Shown one piece after another: positions 9,671 to 38,965 of a stretch of 48,337 nt of DNA. This stretch comes from a bacterium (lineage in GTDB: Bacteria > Bacteroidota > Rhodothermia > Rhodothermales > UBA10348), in assembly GCA_013204185.1 (NCBI GenBank), contig JABMOI010000108.1, forward strand, positions 1-48,337, read 5' to 3'. Both the position numbers and the translations under genes were made by a program. Within the stretch, counting starts at the first letter, position 1, and every line of letters begins with the position of its first letter. Under the pieces are notes generated by a model, which worked only from the letters and a program-made list of their open reading frames with translations, had not been told where the DNA came from and made no database searches.

Positions 9671-11497
9671 ATGTCTCATCAGCTCAGAAATATTGCCATC
9701 GTGGCTCACGTTGACCACGGTAAAACTACACTTGTTGATTCCATGCTTTGGCAGAGTGGGATTTTTCGAGACAATCAAGACGTTGCCGAGCGGGTCATGG
9801 ACTCGATGGACCTCGAACGTGAGAAAGGCATAACCATCATGGCCAAAAACACCGCCGTCCAGTACGGCGATGTGAAAATCAACATCGTTGATACGCCTGG
9901 TCACGCCGATTTTGGCGGTGAGGTAGAACGTACGTTACGAATGGTTGACGGCATTATGCTTCTAGTAGATGCTGCGGAAGGCCCCCTTCCCCAAACCCGC
10001 TTTGTGTTGTCTAAAGCACTAGAATTGAATCTGCCAGCCATTGTGGTCATCAACAAGATTGATCGGGATGACGCGCGTGTAGAAGAGGTATTGAGCGAAG
10101 TATACGACCTGTTTATTGACCTCGATGCGTCTGACGAACAAATTGAATTCCCGGTGATCTTCGCCGTCGCCAAGGATGGTCAGTGCAAGGACACCATCGA
10201 CGGTGAACTGGTTGACCTGAAGCCTTTGTTTGAAACCATTCTAAGTGCGGTTCCTGCACCCGTCGGAGATCCCACTGCTTCTGTTCAGGTGTTGGTTACG
10301 AACGTAGTTCCGGACAACTACCGCGGTCCTTTGGCCATCGGTCGGGTGATCAACGGATCGCTAGTAAACCGTCAGCGTGTCGTTCTTTGCCACAGAGATG
10401 GCACATTTACCCCCGTACAGGTCTCCGCTCTGTTTCAATACTCAGGATTAGGGCGCATTGAAGCCGAATCTGCAGGTCCTGGCGACATTATTGCAATCGG
10501 AGGCATGGTGGGAATCGGCTTGGGCGAAAGCATCGCGGACGCTGAAAATCCAATCCCGTTGGAGCCACTTCACATTGACGAACCTACCATGTCAATGGAA
10601 TTCCGCATCAACGATTCTCCATTTGCGGGACGTGAAGGTAAGTATGTCACCTCTCGTAACCTGAAAGACCGTTTGGCAAAGGAAGGTGAAACGAACCTAT
10701 CCATGCGGATCGAAGCGACGGAATCAGCCGATAGTCACCTCGTTTACGGACGGGGCGAGCTTCAAATGGCTATTCTGATTGAGCAAATGCGTCGAGAAGG
10801 ATTTGAGTTTTCCGTCGGAATGCCCAACGTGATTACGAAGGAAGTCAATGGAAAACGTCACGAGCCGTATGAAATGGCACTGATTGATGTGGCCGAAGAT
10901 TTTATGGGCGCTGTGATTCAGAAGCTTGGCAGCCGTAGAGGCGTGATGACGAAAATGGTGAATCATGGATCGGGTCGGATTCGTCTCGAATTTGAAATCC
11001 CAAGCCGCGGCCTTATCGGCTATAGAAGCGAATTCATGACGGACACAAAAGGAACGGGAATCCTAACCCACCTTTTCGACAAATATGGACCATGGGCTGG
11101 CGACATTGCACACCGTGCCTCTGGAGCCCTCATTGCCGATCGCACAGGAAAGGTTACCGGATACTCAATTGTCAACCTTCAGGAACGCGGTGAGCTGTTC
11201 CTAGGCCCAACGGATGAAGTTTATTGCGGTATGCTTGTTGGCGAAAACAGCCGGGATGTGGACTTAGAAGTGAACATCACCAAAGAAAAGCAGCTTACGA
11301 ACATGCGAGCTTCTTCTTCTGACGCGTTTCAAAAACTCATTCCACCTCGTCGCTTCTCTTTGGAAGAAAGCATCGAATTCATTCGGGAAGACGAACTAAT
11401 CGAAGTCACTCCGATCTCGCTTCGCTTGAGAAAACGCTATTTGGACCCTCATATGCGTAAGCGCGCGGACATGTCCCGCAAAGCAGCGGCTGAATAG
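9671..11497 (+). CDS. typA: Translational GTPase TypA/BipA
   Basis: Ribosome-binding GTPase of the elongation-factor class, involved in 50S assembly and stress or cold adaptation. From the ATG at 9671 it is 608 residues, normal for the family. G1 is AHVDHGKTT, the switch region [12 protein letters not shown]3 [12 protein letters not shown] and G4 NKIDR, all within the first 135 residues; EF-Tu-like domain II and the BipA C-terminal domain with [17 protein letters not shown] follow. A longer reading frame from 9488 begins inside rsgA and adds 61 residues unlike any BipA, so it is rejected. The agmatinase-like gene starts 26 bp after the stop. Confidence 0.96.
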
Positions 11498-32589: not shown

Positions 32590-33720
32590 ATGACAAATAA
32601 ATCGAGCTCGTTCCTCCTATTCTCGTTCCTTTTGACCTTTGTAGCAATAAGCGCATTGGGTCAAGCCGGCTCCCGTGCCCTCATTAGTGGACGGGTGGTA
32701 GAGGCCGAAACAGGACAGCCTCTACCTGGGGCACATGTGTTCATTGCTAGTTCAATGATTGGAACGGTTACAAACACCGACGGCCAATTCAATTTGCACG
32801 ACGTGCCCGTCGGGGCGCATCGTTTGTATGTGTCGATGCTAGGATTTGAACCTGATTTCCGCGACATCATGCTACGAACCGGCAAGGATTATCAGTTCGA
32901 CTTTGAACTAAAAGAATCCATTTTGGACGTCGGCGAAATTATAGTGGAAGCAGAACGGGACAAGAATTGGAAGAAGAGACTGGAAAAGTTCACCCGCATG
33001 TTCATTGGAGAAACACCAAATGCGCTTGAAACGTCCATTACCAATCCAGAAGTACTAGACTTTGATGAAAAGCGTGGAAGCTTCACTGCAGTTGCTGCCG
33101 CTCCTTTAATCATTGAGAATCGGGCTCTGGGGTATCGTATTCAGTATTTCCTCAAGGATTTCGAATCCACGCCGTCGCGCGTTCGCTATGATGGAGAGGG
33201 ACTCTATGAAGAAATGGACGCTTCATCAGAGGAGGAAGCCACCCGTTGGGAAGAAAAGCGGCGAGCCGCGTTTATTGGATCCTTCAGGCACTTTATGCTC
33301 GCCATTATTGCGGGTCGCAGTGAGGCGCAAGGTTTCAAAACTTATTCCCGGCCGTCAGTAGGCGGAGGTGTTGGAGACACATTTAACCGCAGCGCGGCTA
33401 TGGCCGAACAACGCTTCCCGCTCGATCCGACGTCAATCCTGAAGCCTGGCGAAGCCGAGAATGAGTATTTCCTCGACTTTGAAGGGCATATGGAAATTGT
33501 TTTTATGGGCGAAAAAGAAGACGAGTCGTATTTGGACTGGTCTATGCGTCCTGAACGGTCGAATCCCCGATTCCAGACGTCTTGGACGTTTCTGGACCAC
33601 GGCCCCGCAGTGGTCGACTATAAGGGAGATACGCTAGACCCCTATGGAGTTGTCTTCATGGGGTACTGGGCGTTTGAACGCGTTGCCGACGATCCTCCAA
33701 AAGAATACCGTCCACGCTAG
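32590..33720 (+). CDS. Secreted protein with CarboxypepD_reg-like domain
   Basis: Exported protein of 376 residues: signal peptide to about residue 25 (ISALGQ), then a carboxypeptidase-regulatory-like beta-sandwich at about 30-115 with ISGRVVEAETGQPLPGAHVFI and TDGQFNLHDVPVGAHRL (each 17-20 residues). The remaining 260 residues are not recognised. This domain pair is common in Bacteroidota surface or TonB-linked proteins. No TonB box or receptor barrel is here. Located 84 bp after the acyl-CoA synthetase stop and convergent with YraN. Confidence 0.7.
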   Translation: MTNKSSSFLLFSFLLTFVAISALGQAGSRALISGRVVEAETGQPLPGAHVFIASSMIGTVTNTDGQFNLHDVPVGAHRLYVSMLGFEPDFRDIMLRTGKDYQFDFELKESILDVGEIIVEAERDKNWKKRLEKFTRMFIGETPNALETSITNPEVLDFDEKRGSFTAVAAAPLIIENRALGYRIQYFLKDFESTPSRVRYDGEGLYEEMDASSEEEATRWEEKRRAAFIGSFRHFMLAIIAGRSEAQGFKTYSRPSVGGGVGDTFNRSAAMAEQRFPLDPTSILKPGEAENEYFLDFEGHMEIVFMGEKEDESYLDWSMRPERSNPRFQTSWTFLDHGPAVVDYKGDTLDPYGVVFMGYWAFERVADDPPKEYRPR

Positions 33721-33755
33721 GTGGGCCTGTTTCGTTTTGGCTGTTCTCGTCTGGG

Positions 33756-34139
33756 CTAGGCTATAAAAGCAGACTCGATGTGTTCGTACTTAAGGCTTGG
33801 TGGAGAACCAACCAGGGTCACTACGTCAAACCGACACGGCGTGCCTTCAAGCTTTCGCTCATGCAAAAAAGCTTCAGCGGCTTGAATCATCAATCTTTTT
33901 TTTGTCGATCCAATCGAGGATTCTGCCGTGGCGAAGTCCTCATTTCGGCGCCATTTCACCTCGACAAATACGAGGTCCCCTCCCCGATCGTATTGCTTGG
34001 TAGGCAGAAACGCGATTAAATCGACCTCTGCTTTCATAAATCGATAATTCGCTTCTAGGATAACATATCCCTTTTCTTCCAGCCAAGCGGCGGCCAGTTT
34101 TTCACCTGCAAATCCTTTCATCTGTTTTCCTGACGGCAT
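33756..34139 (-). CDS. YraN/UPF0102-family endonuclease-like protein
   Basis: Small 127-residue protein of the UPF0102 family, which has a restriction-endonuclease-like fold. Visible features are G-E-x-L-A-A-x-W-L near the start, the acidic strand AEVDLIAF (usually GEIDLI), then LVFVEVKWR, giving the D and E-x-K catalytic pattern. It is commonly found beside rnhB or rplS, but not here. Role is unproven. Divergent from the SAM hydrolase gene. Confidence 0.8.
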   Translation of the reverse strand: MPSGKQMKGFAGEKLAAAWLEEKGYVILEANYRFMKAEVDLIAFLPTKQYDRGGDLVFVEVKWRRNEDFATAESSIGSTKKRLMIQAAEAFLHERKLEGTPCRFDVVTLVGSPPSLKYEHIESAFIA

Positions 34140-34197: not shown

Positions 34198-35061
34198 GTG
34201 TATCTTACGAATCGAAACAGCGCTCACCCTTTAAGACACATATTTTCGTTGATCGCAACTCCTGGCATTTTGACAATCACGACGGACTTTGGCACCAAGG
34301 ACGGATATGTGGCTGCAATGAAAGGCGTAATTCTGGGCATAAATCCAGCCGTCCGGATTGTAGACATTTCCAATCACATTACGCCTCAGGATGTCATGGA
34401 AGGTGCGTTTGTGCTCAGGAATGCCGCGCTTACCTTTCCGGAAGGAACCGTTCACTTAGCAGTTGTTGACCCTGGAGTTGGGACTCCACGTAAACCCATC
34501 GCAGTTAGGCACAACAATCAGTTTTTCGTTGGTCCCGATAACGGTCTCTTTACATTGTTGCTATCTGGATCTAAGCCTGAAGCGGCAGTTGAGTTAACCA
34601 GGTCACGTTTTTGGCGATCTGAGACGCCAAGTCCCACGTTTCATGGCCGAGACATATTTGCACCCGTAGCAGCGCACTTGTCCACTGGATTGGCCCTAAA
34701 TGCCGCTGGTGTGCCGCTGAACGAGTTGAAAAGCCTTCACTGGGCTCTGCCCATCACCGACGAACGCGGCGTTCAAGGCTGGGTCGTTCACGTCGATCGG
34801 TTTGGAAATTGCATCACCAATATTACCAAAGCTCAGTTTTTGGCTAATCACCGAGATCGATTGTTCAAGTGCTATGCTGGAAATGCGATCATTGATACGC
34901 TTAGCACCACGTACGGAAATGTAGACATTGGCGATGCGACGCTGTTGCTAAACAGTAATGATTTTCTTGAAATAGCGATTCACCGGGGACCCGCTGCTCA
35001 AATGCTCGATATACGAAAAGGAACGCCCGTAAATCTCGTTTTTTCAGACGAAAGAGGATAA
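34198..35061 (+). CDS. DUF62-type SAM hydrolase (S-adenosyl-L-methionine hydroxide adenosyltransferase)
   Basis: Family that hydrolyses S-adenosylmethionine to adenosine and methionine, related to fluorinase and chlorinase. Key segments are ITTDFGTKDGYVAAMKG (residues about 27-43), VVDPGVGTPRK, FFVGPDNGLF, and DRFGNCITNI near residue 200. The start is unclear: the frame opens with GTG at 34198, but a TTG at 34249 (SLIATPGIL...) gives a length more like the family, about 270 residues. The next gene starts 5 bp after the stop. Why the cell would destroy SAM in this context is not known. Confidence 0.85.
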   Translation: MYLTNRNSAHPLRHIFSLIATPGILTITTDFGTKDGYVAAMKGVILGINPAVRIVDISNHITPQDVMEGAFVLRNAALTFPEGTVHLAVVDPGVGTPRKPIAVRHNNQFFVGPDNGLFTLLLSGSKPEAAVELTRSRFWRSETPSPTFHGRDIFAPVAAHLSTGLALNAAGVPLNELKSLHWALPITDERGVQGWVVHVDRFGNCITNITKAQFLANHRDRLFKCYAGNAIIDTLSTTYGNVDIGDATLLLNSNDFLEIAIHRGPAAQMLDIRKGTPVNLVFSDERG

Positions 35062-35069
35062 TTCGGTTG
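35053..35069 (+). promoter_or_regulatory. Ribosome binding site and TTG start of the membrane protein gene
   Basis: AGAGGA (35053-35058) forms the last two codons of the SAM hydrolase gene and lies eight bases before the TTG at 35067. The next in-frame ATG is about 70 residues in, so this TTG is the best start. Confidence 0.6.
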
Positions 35070-36200
35070 ACAGATATTCAAAAAACAGGCCCTTACAATC
35101 AGCCTGACCCCCATTCTTTGCTCTCGGATCTTGATGAACTGTACCTGATCGCACAGCTACTCGTCAATCGGAATGAGGATGTAAACGAAGTAGTCGAGCG
35201 CGCAATCGAACGGCGTTTCAGGGGTTCTCCACTCCCTGCAGCTGACTTGTTGCGTTCGGTCCTCACGCCCGAACAGATGCAAAGCAACAGCAACCTGATT
35301 AAGGCCAGACAAATTGAAACGGATCTTGCACACATTGTGCCTCGGCTAATTGCACGAACTTCTCCTAGCCGACGCGTCGATATTATTCAAGCTTTTCTGG
35401 GCCACCATTCGAATGGAGTCGAGCGTTCGTCCTTTATGCATCGCATTCGCCGGTCTCTCGAATCACACGGCGACGCTTCTTCTGCAGAAATGGTTACGGA
35501 AGCTCAGGTGTCTAGAAGCATCCAGAATTACGTAGATTCAACGTTCACACCCGTATCTCCTGGTCTGCGAGGGTCATTGGAGTCCAGATATGCTTCGTCC
35601 TCAGAGCCAGCTTCTGCTTTACATTCGCACGCTGCTCCTCCAAAAAAACGTCCTGTCCTATTTCGTCTGGCGGCTGGCTTTCTGCTTATTCTCGCAGCCT
35701 CAGCCATTGGAACTTGGATTGCCAAGCCCAGCCGGCTTCCCGTTGCTCCTGAGGGTCGAAATGACATTTTGACCCAGATTGACACCTATTCACCCGATGG
35801 ATCTCTTGTGTTTCAGGGTTCTGATAGAAGTCAGATTGAACGACTAATCGAAGAGCGCTCGGGGCAACGTGTAGCTCTACCGTTTCTTTCTGGGGGGTCG
35901 GTCACGGGCCTTTCTCTTGAATCCATCACTCCTGATCTTACCGTTCCTACGGTTCACTATTCCCTAAACGATGAAGACGTCCCCGTATTCATCTTGGATT
36001 ACAGAACCATACAACTCGTTTCCGAGTCTCTCGACTTCGATTCGTCCGTACTTAATCAGATCTCTACTTCGGCGGGTCTCGACATTCACGTTTTAGACTC
36101 CAAGTCTCGAATCGTATTTCGAAATCGAGACGACATATTTATTACGTTTGCGGCAGAAAACCCGCAGGATTTTAGGCGCCTGTTTCGATTCGATCAGTAA
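35067..36200 (+). CDS. Membrane protein with anti-sigma-factor-like outer domain
   Basis: A 377-residue protein with one membrane helix at about 197-217 (FRLAAGFLLILAASAIGTWIA). The N-terminal 60 residues contain a helical stretch (LDELYLIAQLLVNRNEDVNEVVERAIERRF) that reminds me of sigma-factor region 2, and a long linker follows. The outer 160 residues have the pattern of transmembrane anti-sigma factors: Q-I-E-R-L-I-E-E-R-S-G-Q-R-V-A-L-P, then G-x-S-L-x-x-x-T, then hydrophobic strands. Homology is by eye and weak. It follows the SAM hydrolase by 5 bp and is convergent with the histidine kinase. Confidence 0.6.
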   Translation: MTDIQKTGPYNQPDPHSLLSDLDELYLIAQLLVNRNEDVNEVVERAIERRFRGSPLPAADLLRSVLTPEQMQSNSNLIKARQIETDLAHIVPRLIARTSPSRRVDIIQAFLGHHSNGVERSSFMHRIRRSLESHGDASSAEMVTEAQVSRSIQNYVDSTFTPVSPGLRGSLESRYASSSEPASALHSHAAPPKKRPVLFRLAAGFLLILAASAIGTWIAKPSRLPVAPEGRNDILTQIDTYSPDGSLVFQGSDRSQIERLIEERSGQRVALPFLSGGSVTGLSLESITPDLTVPTVHYSLNDEDVPVFILDYRTIQLVSESLDFDSSVLNQISTSAGLDIHVLDSKSRIVFRNRDDIFITFAAENPQDFRRLFRFDQ

Positions 36201-36208
36201 ACGGGCGC

Positions 36209-37672
36209 TCAGCCCGCCGGGATTTCTATCCGACCTGCTGGAATTTCTATCCTACCTGCCGGGATTTCGATCCTACCTGCCGGGATTTCGATCCTAAATG
36301 TGGTGCCCTGCCCCAGTTTCGACTGAGCCAGCACGAGCGTACCACCGTGATAGTCCTCCACAATGCGCTTGGCTAAACTTAGCCCAAGTCCCCACCCTCT
36401 TTTTTTAGTGCTATAACCTGGTCGGAACACATTTTTCCAATTGCGTCGGTCAACACCCTTTCCTGTGTCCCGTACATCAATTCGAATCTTCGTGTCTACG
36501 GCCGACGCTAAGACATCGATTCGGCCTCGTTCGGATTCAATTGCGTCCAACGCGTTCTTTAGCAGGTTTTCAATTACCCATTCAAAGAGCTCCGAGTTGA
36601 GCGGAGCCTGTAAACCCGGGTCGGTGACCACATTTAACCTTATAAATGTCCCTCCTTGCGGAAGCCTTCGTCGCATATAATCGGTCGTGCTTTCTATGAC
36701 GGGGCCAATAGGCTGGACTTCAAGTTTGGGCAAGGAGCCAATATCAGAAAAGCGGCTAGCCACTCGAGTCAATCGCTCGATGTCCTTCTCGATCTCAACA
36801 TACGTTTCCTCATGAACCGAGTCTTGGCGTTCTCCATCCCTCATCCTCATGTACTCCAACCAGCCCATTAGACTTGAGATAGGCGTACCAAGCTGATGGG
36901 CTGCTTCTTTGGCCATCCCTACCCAAAGACTAGATTGCTCGCTTCTTCGGATGTAAGAGAAGCCAATATATCCGACCAGTACGAACAGCGACATGAACAA
37001 AAGTTGAACAAGCGGGAAGCTTCGCAGCCCTTGTACCAATTTTGATTCTCCGTAATACAAATACTGTACAAAACGGATTGCAGGGTACTCTGCCGTTCCT
37101 GGAAACGTGACAACGATTGGAATTGGATCGTGCAACAAGGCCATCTCTGGCACCTGCTCAAGTAAATGCTGCGTCTGAATTGCTGCTTCGGCTTCGGTCA
37201 GGTCTGCGAACGTGGTCGCCGCTGAACCAGTATTCCACCACTGCACGGGCTGCCCTGACGCAGAATCAACCACGATGGCAGGAATCTCCCCGACTAAATC
37301 TGGAAACAATATTGCTTCCTGTATAAAGTCGATGACTCTGGGGGCCGGGACATTCCTTGCCCAGCGCAAAGCCTGAGCATATCGTTCGAAATCGTCTGGG
37401 GAGACAGCTGCTTTAACTCCTGGGAGCTGACTTACCCCTTGCAAAACAGAGGCAATCTCGTCCAAGTCTGCCGGGTAGGGTGTACTAGCTCCTGTCTGAG
37501 GTGCCTTAGGGATTTCCTCTAATGCCTTGGCCCATAACCGCACCACAGACGTTTCTCGCTCTTTGAGCCGATCTACAAGCTTTGTGGTGTACCACAGGGA
37601 GGCAACCGCAATCAGAATGGCGAAACTGATCAAGCCCAGTTTCAGATTGACTGATATGCGATATGCTTTCAT
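36209..37672 (-). CDS. Orphan sensor histidine kinase with expanded C-terminus
   Basis: A 487-residue kinase: membrane helix near 14-33, a large extracytoplasmic region, a second helix at about 225-240, and the kinase core. The phosphoacceptor is His259 in AAHQLGTPISSLMGW; the N-box is ENLLKNALDAI, G1 is DTGKGV and G2 is KRGWGLGLSLAK. The normal end F-R-I-E-I-P-A-G is followed by three further copies of R-I-E-I-P-A-G, so the gene ends in four exact 21-bp units (36212-36295). No response regulator is next to it. It begins 18 bp downstream of purA and is probably cotranscribed. Confidence 0.9.
   Translation of the reverse strand: MKAYRISVNLKLGLISFAILIAVASLWYTTKLVDRLKERETSVVRLWAKALEEIPKAPQTGASTPYPADLDEIASVLQGVSQLPGVKAAVSPDDFERYAQALRWARNVPAPRVIDFIQEAILFPDLVGEIPAIVVDSASGQPVQWWNTGSAATTFADLTEAEAAIQTQHLLEQVPEMALLHDPIPIVVTFPGTAEYPAIRFVQYLYYGESKLVQGLRSFPLVQLLFMSLFVLVGYIGFSYIRRSEQSSLWVGMAKEAAHQLGTPISSLMGWLEYMRMRDGERQDSVHEETYVEIEKDIERLTRVASRFSDIGSLPKLEVQPIGPVIESTTDYMRRRLPQGGTFIRLNVVTDPGLQAPLNSELFEWVIENLLKNALDAIESERGRIDVLASAVDTKIRIDVRDTGKGVDRRNWKNVFRPGYSTKKRGWGLGLSLAKRIVEDYHGGTLVLAQSKLGQGTTFRIEIPAGRIEIPAGRIEIPAGRIEIPAG
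36212..36295 (-). repeat. Four 21-bp tandem repeats in the histidine kinase gene
   Basis: Units at 36275-36295, 36254-36274, 36233-36253 and 36212-36232 each encode R-I-E-I-P-A-G. The first two are identical; the third has two changes per codon position (ATA, ATT, CCA, GGT), the last has ATA, GCG, GGC. All changes are synonymous or keep the residue, and reading frame is preserved because 21 is a multiple of three. Confidence 0.95.
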
Positions 37673-37690
37673 ATAAACCTATTGAGGCAA

Positions 37691-38965
37691 TTACAAAACG
37701 ATCGTTTGCTCTCTTTTTGGTCCCGTTGCAATGATATGAGCAGGAACTTCAAGATAGTTTGTAACGAAGTTTAGATAATTTCGTGCCTCAATTGGTAATG
37801 CATCCCAGTCAGTAATACCCGTGATGTCCGTTTTCCACCCAGGCATCGTGATATATTGCGGTTCTACTAACGCCAAGCTAGGAAGATCGCTCGGGAAACG
37901 GCGAATCGTTTTTCCATTGAGCTTATAGTCCGTGCAGATCTTGATCTCTTCCAAATTAGACAGTACGTCTAGTTTTGTAATCGCAAGTTCTGTAAATCCA
38001 TTGATCATGGAAGTATAGTTTAATGCGACGAGGTCGAGCCAACCACAGCGTCGTGGCCGGCCAGTCGTGGCACCAAACTCATGACCTGTTTTTCTCAATT
38101 CCTCCCCTTGTGCATTGTCTAATTCCGTTGGGAAGGGGCCGTTTCCAACGCGGGTGCTGTATGCCTTTACAATGCCGATCACTCGATCAATTGCGGTTGG
38201 TGGCACGCCTAGACCCGTGCAACATCCTCCAACGGTAGGATGGCTACTCGTGACAAACGGATACGTACCGAAGTCTACATCAAGCAAAGATCCTTGTGCG
38301 CCTTCCGCTAAGATGCGCTTTCCTTCTTTCAATGATCTGCACAAAAACTCCGTTGTATCCGTGATATAAGGGTCAATGAGCTTATCAAACTCAACATACT
38401 CTTCGATGAGCGCCTCTACGTCGATCTTCTCGGCGCCATAGATTTTCTCTAAGATGGCGTTTTTCTCTTCCATGGAAGCCAGAATTTTCTTCCTGAGCAC
38501 ATCTCTATCCAACAAGTCTACGACTCGAATACCCGTTCTAGCAAATTTGTCGACGTAGGCCGGACCTATGCCTCGTCCAGTCGTGCCAATTGCGCCGCCG
38601 TCTCTGAATTTTTCCCGTGCCTCTTCGATCCGTTTGTGGTACGGCATAATGAGGTGGGCGTTGTGAGAAATAAAAAGTCGGCCTTCCACATCGTAACCGA
38701 GGTCCCGGACCATTCCAATCTCTTGCATCATGGCAACAGGGTCAATTACAACTCCGTTTCCAATTACACAATCCACGCCTTCCTGAAAAATCCCACTAGG
38801 AATCAGGTGAAGAACAAACGTCTTATCCTCCCAGCAAATGGTGTGACCCGCGTTTGCTCCACCTTGATAGCGAGCTACGATGTCCACATCTTGACTGATG
38901 AGGTCCACAATTTTTCCTTTCCCTTCGTCTCCCCACTGACTCCCAATGACAACTGAAACCGGCAT
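37691..38965 (-). CDS. purA: Adenylosuccinate synthetase
   Basis: GTP-dependent enzyme that joins IMP and aspartate on the path to AMP. The 424-residue protein has the GTP loop GSQWGDEGKGK at residues 8-18, catalytic GGANAGHT, and the IMP-binding TTGRGIGPAY. Length is normal. It is expressed on the minus strand after a terminator (39022-39047) that ends the sec operon; the histidine kinase follows 18 bp downstream. A start at ATG 38965 gives MPVSVVIGSQWG, typical for the family. Confidence 0.97.
   Translation of the reverse strand: MPVSVVIGSQWGDEGKGKIVDLISQDVDIVARYQGGANAGHTICWEDKTFVLHLIPSGIFQEGVDCVIGNGVVIDPVAMMQEIGMVRDLGYDVEGRLFISHNAHLIMPYHKRIEEAREKFRDGGAIGTTGRGIGPAYVDKFARTGIRVVDLLDRDVLRKKILASMEEKNAILEKIYGAEKIDVEALIEEYVEFDKLIDPYITDTTEFLCRSLKEGKRILAEGAQGSLLDVDFGTYPFVTSSHPTVGGCCTGLGVPPTAIDRVIGIVKAYSTRVGNGPFPTELDNAQGEELRKTGHEFGATTGRPRRCGWLDLVALNYTSMINGFTELAITKLDVLSNLEEIKICTDYKLNGKTIRRFPSDLPSLALVEPQYITMPGWKTDITGITDWDALPIEARNYLNFVTNYLEVPAHIIATGPKREQTIVL

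Follow-up and report, generated by a model that had tools for sequence, protein, structure and literature searches.

A four-copy in-frame tandem repeat at the C-terminus of a sensor histidine kinase in one Rhodothermales-type bacterium

Coding minisatellites and in-frame terminal repeats are built from short head-to-tail units whose length is a multiple of three and which lie at a protein end. According to a census, short protein repeats favour protein ends or flanks and disorder (PMC7230257), and a review describes coding repeats as generally lacking isoleucine (PMC3899988). The array described here shares this layout: it has at least three copies arranged head to tail, and its unit exceeds 9 bp, is a multiple of three, is read in a single frame and is free of stops. 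It differs from the known cases in that its unit copies the domain's own last beta-strand and contains isoleucine, and in that the differences between its copies are all synonymous. The composition of the unit peptide, RIEIPAG, is somewhat unusual because the unit copies a beta-strand. Bacterial contingency (phase-variation) repeats are likewise intragenic tandem repeats whose number could change. However, the 21-bp unit lies within a reading frame and shifts neither the frame nor a promoter spacing, so it cannot act as an on/off switch. The third comparison is with orthodox membrane sensor histidine kinases of the ZraS/AtoS and HK853 type, which have the same HisKA-like helices (with H259 here), HATPase_c domain and membrane anchor; the present kinase differs from them only in carrying 21 extra residues beyond the ATPase domain. 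In the part of the literature that was covered, we found no relevant precedent for histidine or sensor kinases with tandem repeats or such a C-terminal extension.

The kinase is encoded on the minus strand of a 48,337-nt stretch of DNA from an uncultured bacterium, which was analysed as a whole and is called the window below. The features that the argument uses are as follows.

36209..37672, minus strand: membrane sensor histidine kinase of 487 aa, with HATPase_c and a HisKA-like dimerisation region containing the invariant H259
36212..36295, minus strand: four-copy 21-bp tandem array encoding (RIEIPAG)x4, kinase residues 460-487
36275..36295, minus strand: copy 1, homologous to the relatives' single terminal FRI(E)xP strand and part of the last ATPase-domain beta-strand in the model (456-464)
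36212..36274, minus strand: copies 2-4, a lineage-specific insertion, predicted disordered (pLDDT about 50)
36200..36218, minus strand: GC-rich stem-loop that spans the kinase stop and includes the final two codons of copy 4
35067..36200, plus strand: convergent 377-aa gene of no recognised family, conserved here in most of the order, its stop 8 bp from the kinase stop
37691..38965, minus strand: purA (adenylosuccinate synthetase), conserved upstream neighbour of the kinase

The HATPase_c match (71.3 bits against a cut-off of 26.4) supports the assignment of the protein as a sensor histidine kinase. The HisKA match, at 22.2 bits, falls just below its cut-off of 26.9; the HisKA-like region is nevertheless covered by profile and fold matches, and H259 and its surrounding residues are invariant across 34 aligned sequences. 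By both sequence and fold, the solved relatives include ZraS, HK853 and similar kinases. In the model and the alignment, the protein opens with a long N-terminal helix, followed by an extracytoplasmic part, another long helix, the HisKA-like region and HATPase_c; the two long helices are presumably membrane helices. A gene for S-adenosyl-methionine hydrolase lies beyond the convergent 377-aa gene, whose protein matches no Pfam or NCBIfam family. The order SAM hydrolase, 377-aa gene, (convergent) kinase and purA, at 34198-38965 of the window, is conserved across most Rhodothermales.

The array comprises four head-to-tail 21-bp units, exactly in register, which encode the final 28 aa of the kinase and are followed directly by its TGA stop (36211-36209, minus strand). 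The units read AGGATCGAAATCCCGGCAGGT (two copies), AGGATAGAAATTCCAGCAGGT and CGGATAGAAATCCCGGCGGGC, and each encodes RIEIPAG. Tandem Repeats Finder described the array with period 21, 3.9 copies, 90% match and a score of 127, the highest of the 12 repeats that it returned for the window. The array is well beyond chance. Copies 1 and 2 are identical. Variation among the four copies is confined to six sites: five third codon positions and the first position of one arginine codon (AGG/CGG). All six are synonymous, in agreement with the first-pass annotation, which had called the differences silent. Its remark that 21 bp keeps the frame is also correct, the unit being a multiple of three with no stop in it. 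A dispersed repeat family was ruled out, since the 21-bp unit is present only at this array, and the tandem RIEIPAG peptide pattern has no other occurrence in the 3.44-Mb genome.

Relatives of the kinase were collected by a search of 60 genomes plus the genome collection. Identity is 64-78% within the same genus, with one further fragment at 84%, and falls to about 37% in Ignavibacteria. About 85 of these relatives, from across this range, have a complete 3' end, and all of them carry a single copy: the C-terminus consists of one terminal strand followed by at most about 16 residues, with no repeats. In the 84% fragment, from G005, 170 aa are matched within an open frame of 174 aa, too short to accommodate the array. 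All 113 other genomes from the order lacked the tandem peptide pattern. A tail common to the relatives was thus ruled out by the single-copy ends and the 113 genomes, and the same two observations place the gain of copies 2-4 in this species' lineage. Sequence comparison therefore supports one copy as the ancestral state, and the proposal that the ordinary kinase end RIEIPAG was copied three more times, in frame, is borne out by the array together with this single-copy ancestor.

The copies do not appear to be of one age. Copies 1 and 2, being identical, are by their sequence the newest pair. Any other pairing shows 3-5 differences over about 5.5 synonymous sites and 0 over about 15.5 non-synonymous sites. 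When species of the genus are compared, the synonymous sites of the kinase are saturated, with a proportion of 0.83-0.84 in two full-length comparisons (L004 and L005; the misoriented loci L002, L003 and L009 were left out of this figure), and the divergence among the other copy pairs resembles this saturated divergence. The older copies are thus not very recent. Under random point mutation, the probability that all six changes would be synonymous is 3-7e-4, depending on transition bias. As a control, we took 13 further coding arrays from three sampled genomes; they had 27 variable sites in codons that change only synonymously and 42 in codons that change the amino acid, compared with six of six synonymous in the kinase array (Fisher p = 0.0055). 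These figures are suggestive only, because the control genes are crude ORF calls, often of repeat-rich proteins under other constraints, and because the kinase array was noticed through its identical peptide copies and offers only six sites. Within these bounds, the pattern suggests that purifying selection keeps the copies free of amino-acid change. Nucleotide-level causes may also account for part of the pattern: two of the six changes (GCG and GGC in copy 4) fall in the stem-loop around the stop codon. The first-pass annotation had read the silent differences as either selection on the peptide or recent duplication. Recent duplication applies to copies 1 and 2 only; for the remaining pairs it fails, and selection is the better of the two options because those pairs lie near saturated synonymous divergence, a preference resting on very few sites.

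The position of the array at a stop codon is shared by other tandem arrays. We counted arrays with Tandem Repeats Finder (at least 2.9 copies, period 9-60) in 458 kb, about 13%, of this genome and in parts of four others, taking contact with a stop codon as within 6 bp. Of 13 arrays in this genome, 6 make such contact, the kinase array among them, where random placement would give 0.62. The corresponding figures for 800 kb of G017, a member of the same family assembled into two contigs, are 5 of 18 and 1.39. Start codons were not clearly enriched in these two samples, and the samples of G001, G002 and G028, with few arrays, gave no stop-codon array. The enrichment weakens when placement outside genes is taken as given (p = 0.03 in this genome, 0.32 in G017), which indicates that tolerance around gene ends explains much of the bias. 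The other stop-codon arrays of this genome include L131:9065-9130 (G000 contig C175), L135:3350-3407, L143:15-92, L152:9733-9775 and L147:1534-1565; those of G017 include L212:17253-17332, L203:18424-18485, L196:13892-13927 and L212:9743-9783. They are unrelated in sequence, and those other than L131 start within a few bases of the stop. At L131 a 16-bp unit in 4.1 copies spans the stop of a 405-aa gene whose protein ends LNPIDALRFE, and every unit carries CGTTTCGAATAA. There and at L135, L143 and L152 the stop lies within the unit or ahead of it, and no residues are added to the protein. The kinase array, with a 21-bp unit and no stop, is the in-frame version of these arrays and the only clear protein-lengthening one in this genome's sample.

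Further repeats were recorded. A weak 15-bp tandem repeat (33722-33757 of the window; 2.4 copies, score 40) begins 1 bp past the stop of a 376-aa gene (32590-33720). A 1366-aa gene holds both a 192-bp tandem duplication (87% matches) and, elsewhere, an array of the pentapeptide ELANT (L130:7442-7789 and 9708-9777).

We favour, with a probability of roughly 0.65, a terminal in-frame duplication in a tolerant place, whose tail is probably under weak purifying selection and has a mild effect or none known. An otherwise ordinary sensor kinase gene would have had its final 21 coding bases tandemly duplicated, repeatedly, to give four copies, presumably by replication slippage or unequal recombination. 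The frame would be kept by a unit length divisible by three and the lack of a stop within the unit, and the insertion may be tolerated because it follows the last beta-strand of the ATPase domain. Copies 3 and 4 would be old, having accumulated synonymous changes while amino-acid changes were purged, and the weak selection on the tail may act only against harmful sequences. The effect of the tail on the kinase is perhaps negligible.

A stronger role for the peptide is possible but unlikely. The extra RIEIPAG copies could set activity by binding the kinase, its partner receiver or another protein, with copy number varying in the population as a tuning knob. The all-synonymous differences, unlike those in most other coding arrays of the group, would fit this idea, as would a unit that copies a native beta-strand sequence and contains the isoleucine that coding repeats reportedly lack in general (PMC3899988). 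On the other hand, the tail is missing from every relative, and several 3'-end arrays in the genome alter no protein. The suggestion of the first-pass annotation that repeat number could vary and tune the kinase is thus not supported. An AlphaFold model of the kinase (34 sequences; mean pLDDT 80.6, pTM 0.45) also speaks against it: copy 1 lies in the last beta-strand, and copies 2-4, with pLDDT about 50 and no secondary structure, are predicted disordered. With a pTM of 0.45 the domain placement is unreliable and the tail result is a local one, predicted where the alignment is uninformative because the relatives have no tail. A structured repeat domain was ruled out on this model. The fullest version of the idea, in which a selected heptapeptide array derived from the terminal beta-strand forms a copy-number-adjustable regulatory tail and makes the kinase of this one species length-tunable, is improbable.

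Somewhat less likely than a functional tail in general is a neutral accident, in which a 3'-end tandem duplication left an unselected peptide and the silent pattern reflects luck and ascertainment. The excess of stop-codon arrays in this genome and G017 and the small number of informative sites are both what such an accident would give, but six synonymous changes out of six are expected at only about 5e-4 by chance under random mutation. Far less probable is a role as nucleic acid, as a barrier to convergent transcription or an RNA structure between genes ending 8 bp apart. The array does sit between convergent genes and a 7-pair stem-loop does span the stop codon; yet the stem-loop is no better than shuffles (z = -0.79) and has no T-run terminator, the 131-nt array region also folds no better than shuffles (z = 0.37), no terminator-like site was found at the array, and the units at other stop codons have no common sequence. 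An RNA element or terminator was accordingly rejected as unsupported. An assembly error is scarcely credible even in a draft of 271 contigs, because the four units fall into three distinct sequences, the array's 84 bp fit within ordinary read lengths, and similar 3' arrays occur in the two-contig assembly of G017.

Taken alone, and under the favoured reading of a tolerated terminal duplication, the array makes one kinase slightly longer in a single species. Arrays at stop codons above chance in this genome and a relative suggest that gene ends are sites for adding coding sequence, and the kinase shows the outcome when the unit of such an array is in frame and stop-free. Should the tail prove functional, it would offer a simple example from nature of a signalling protein tuned through its number of repeats.
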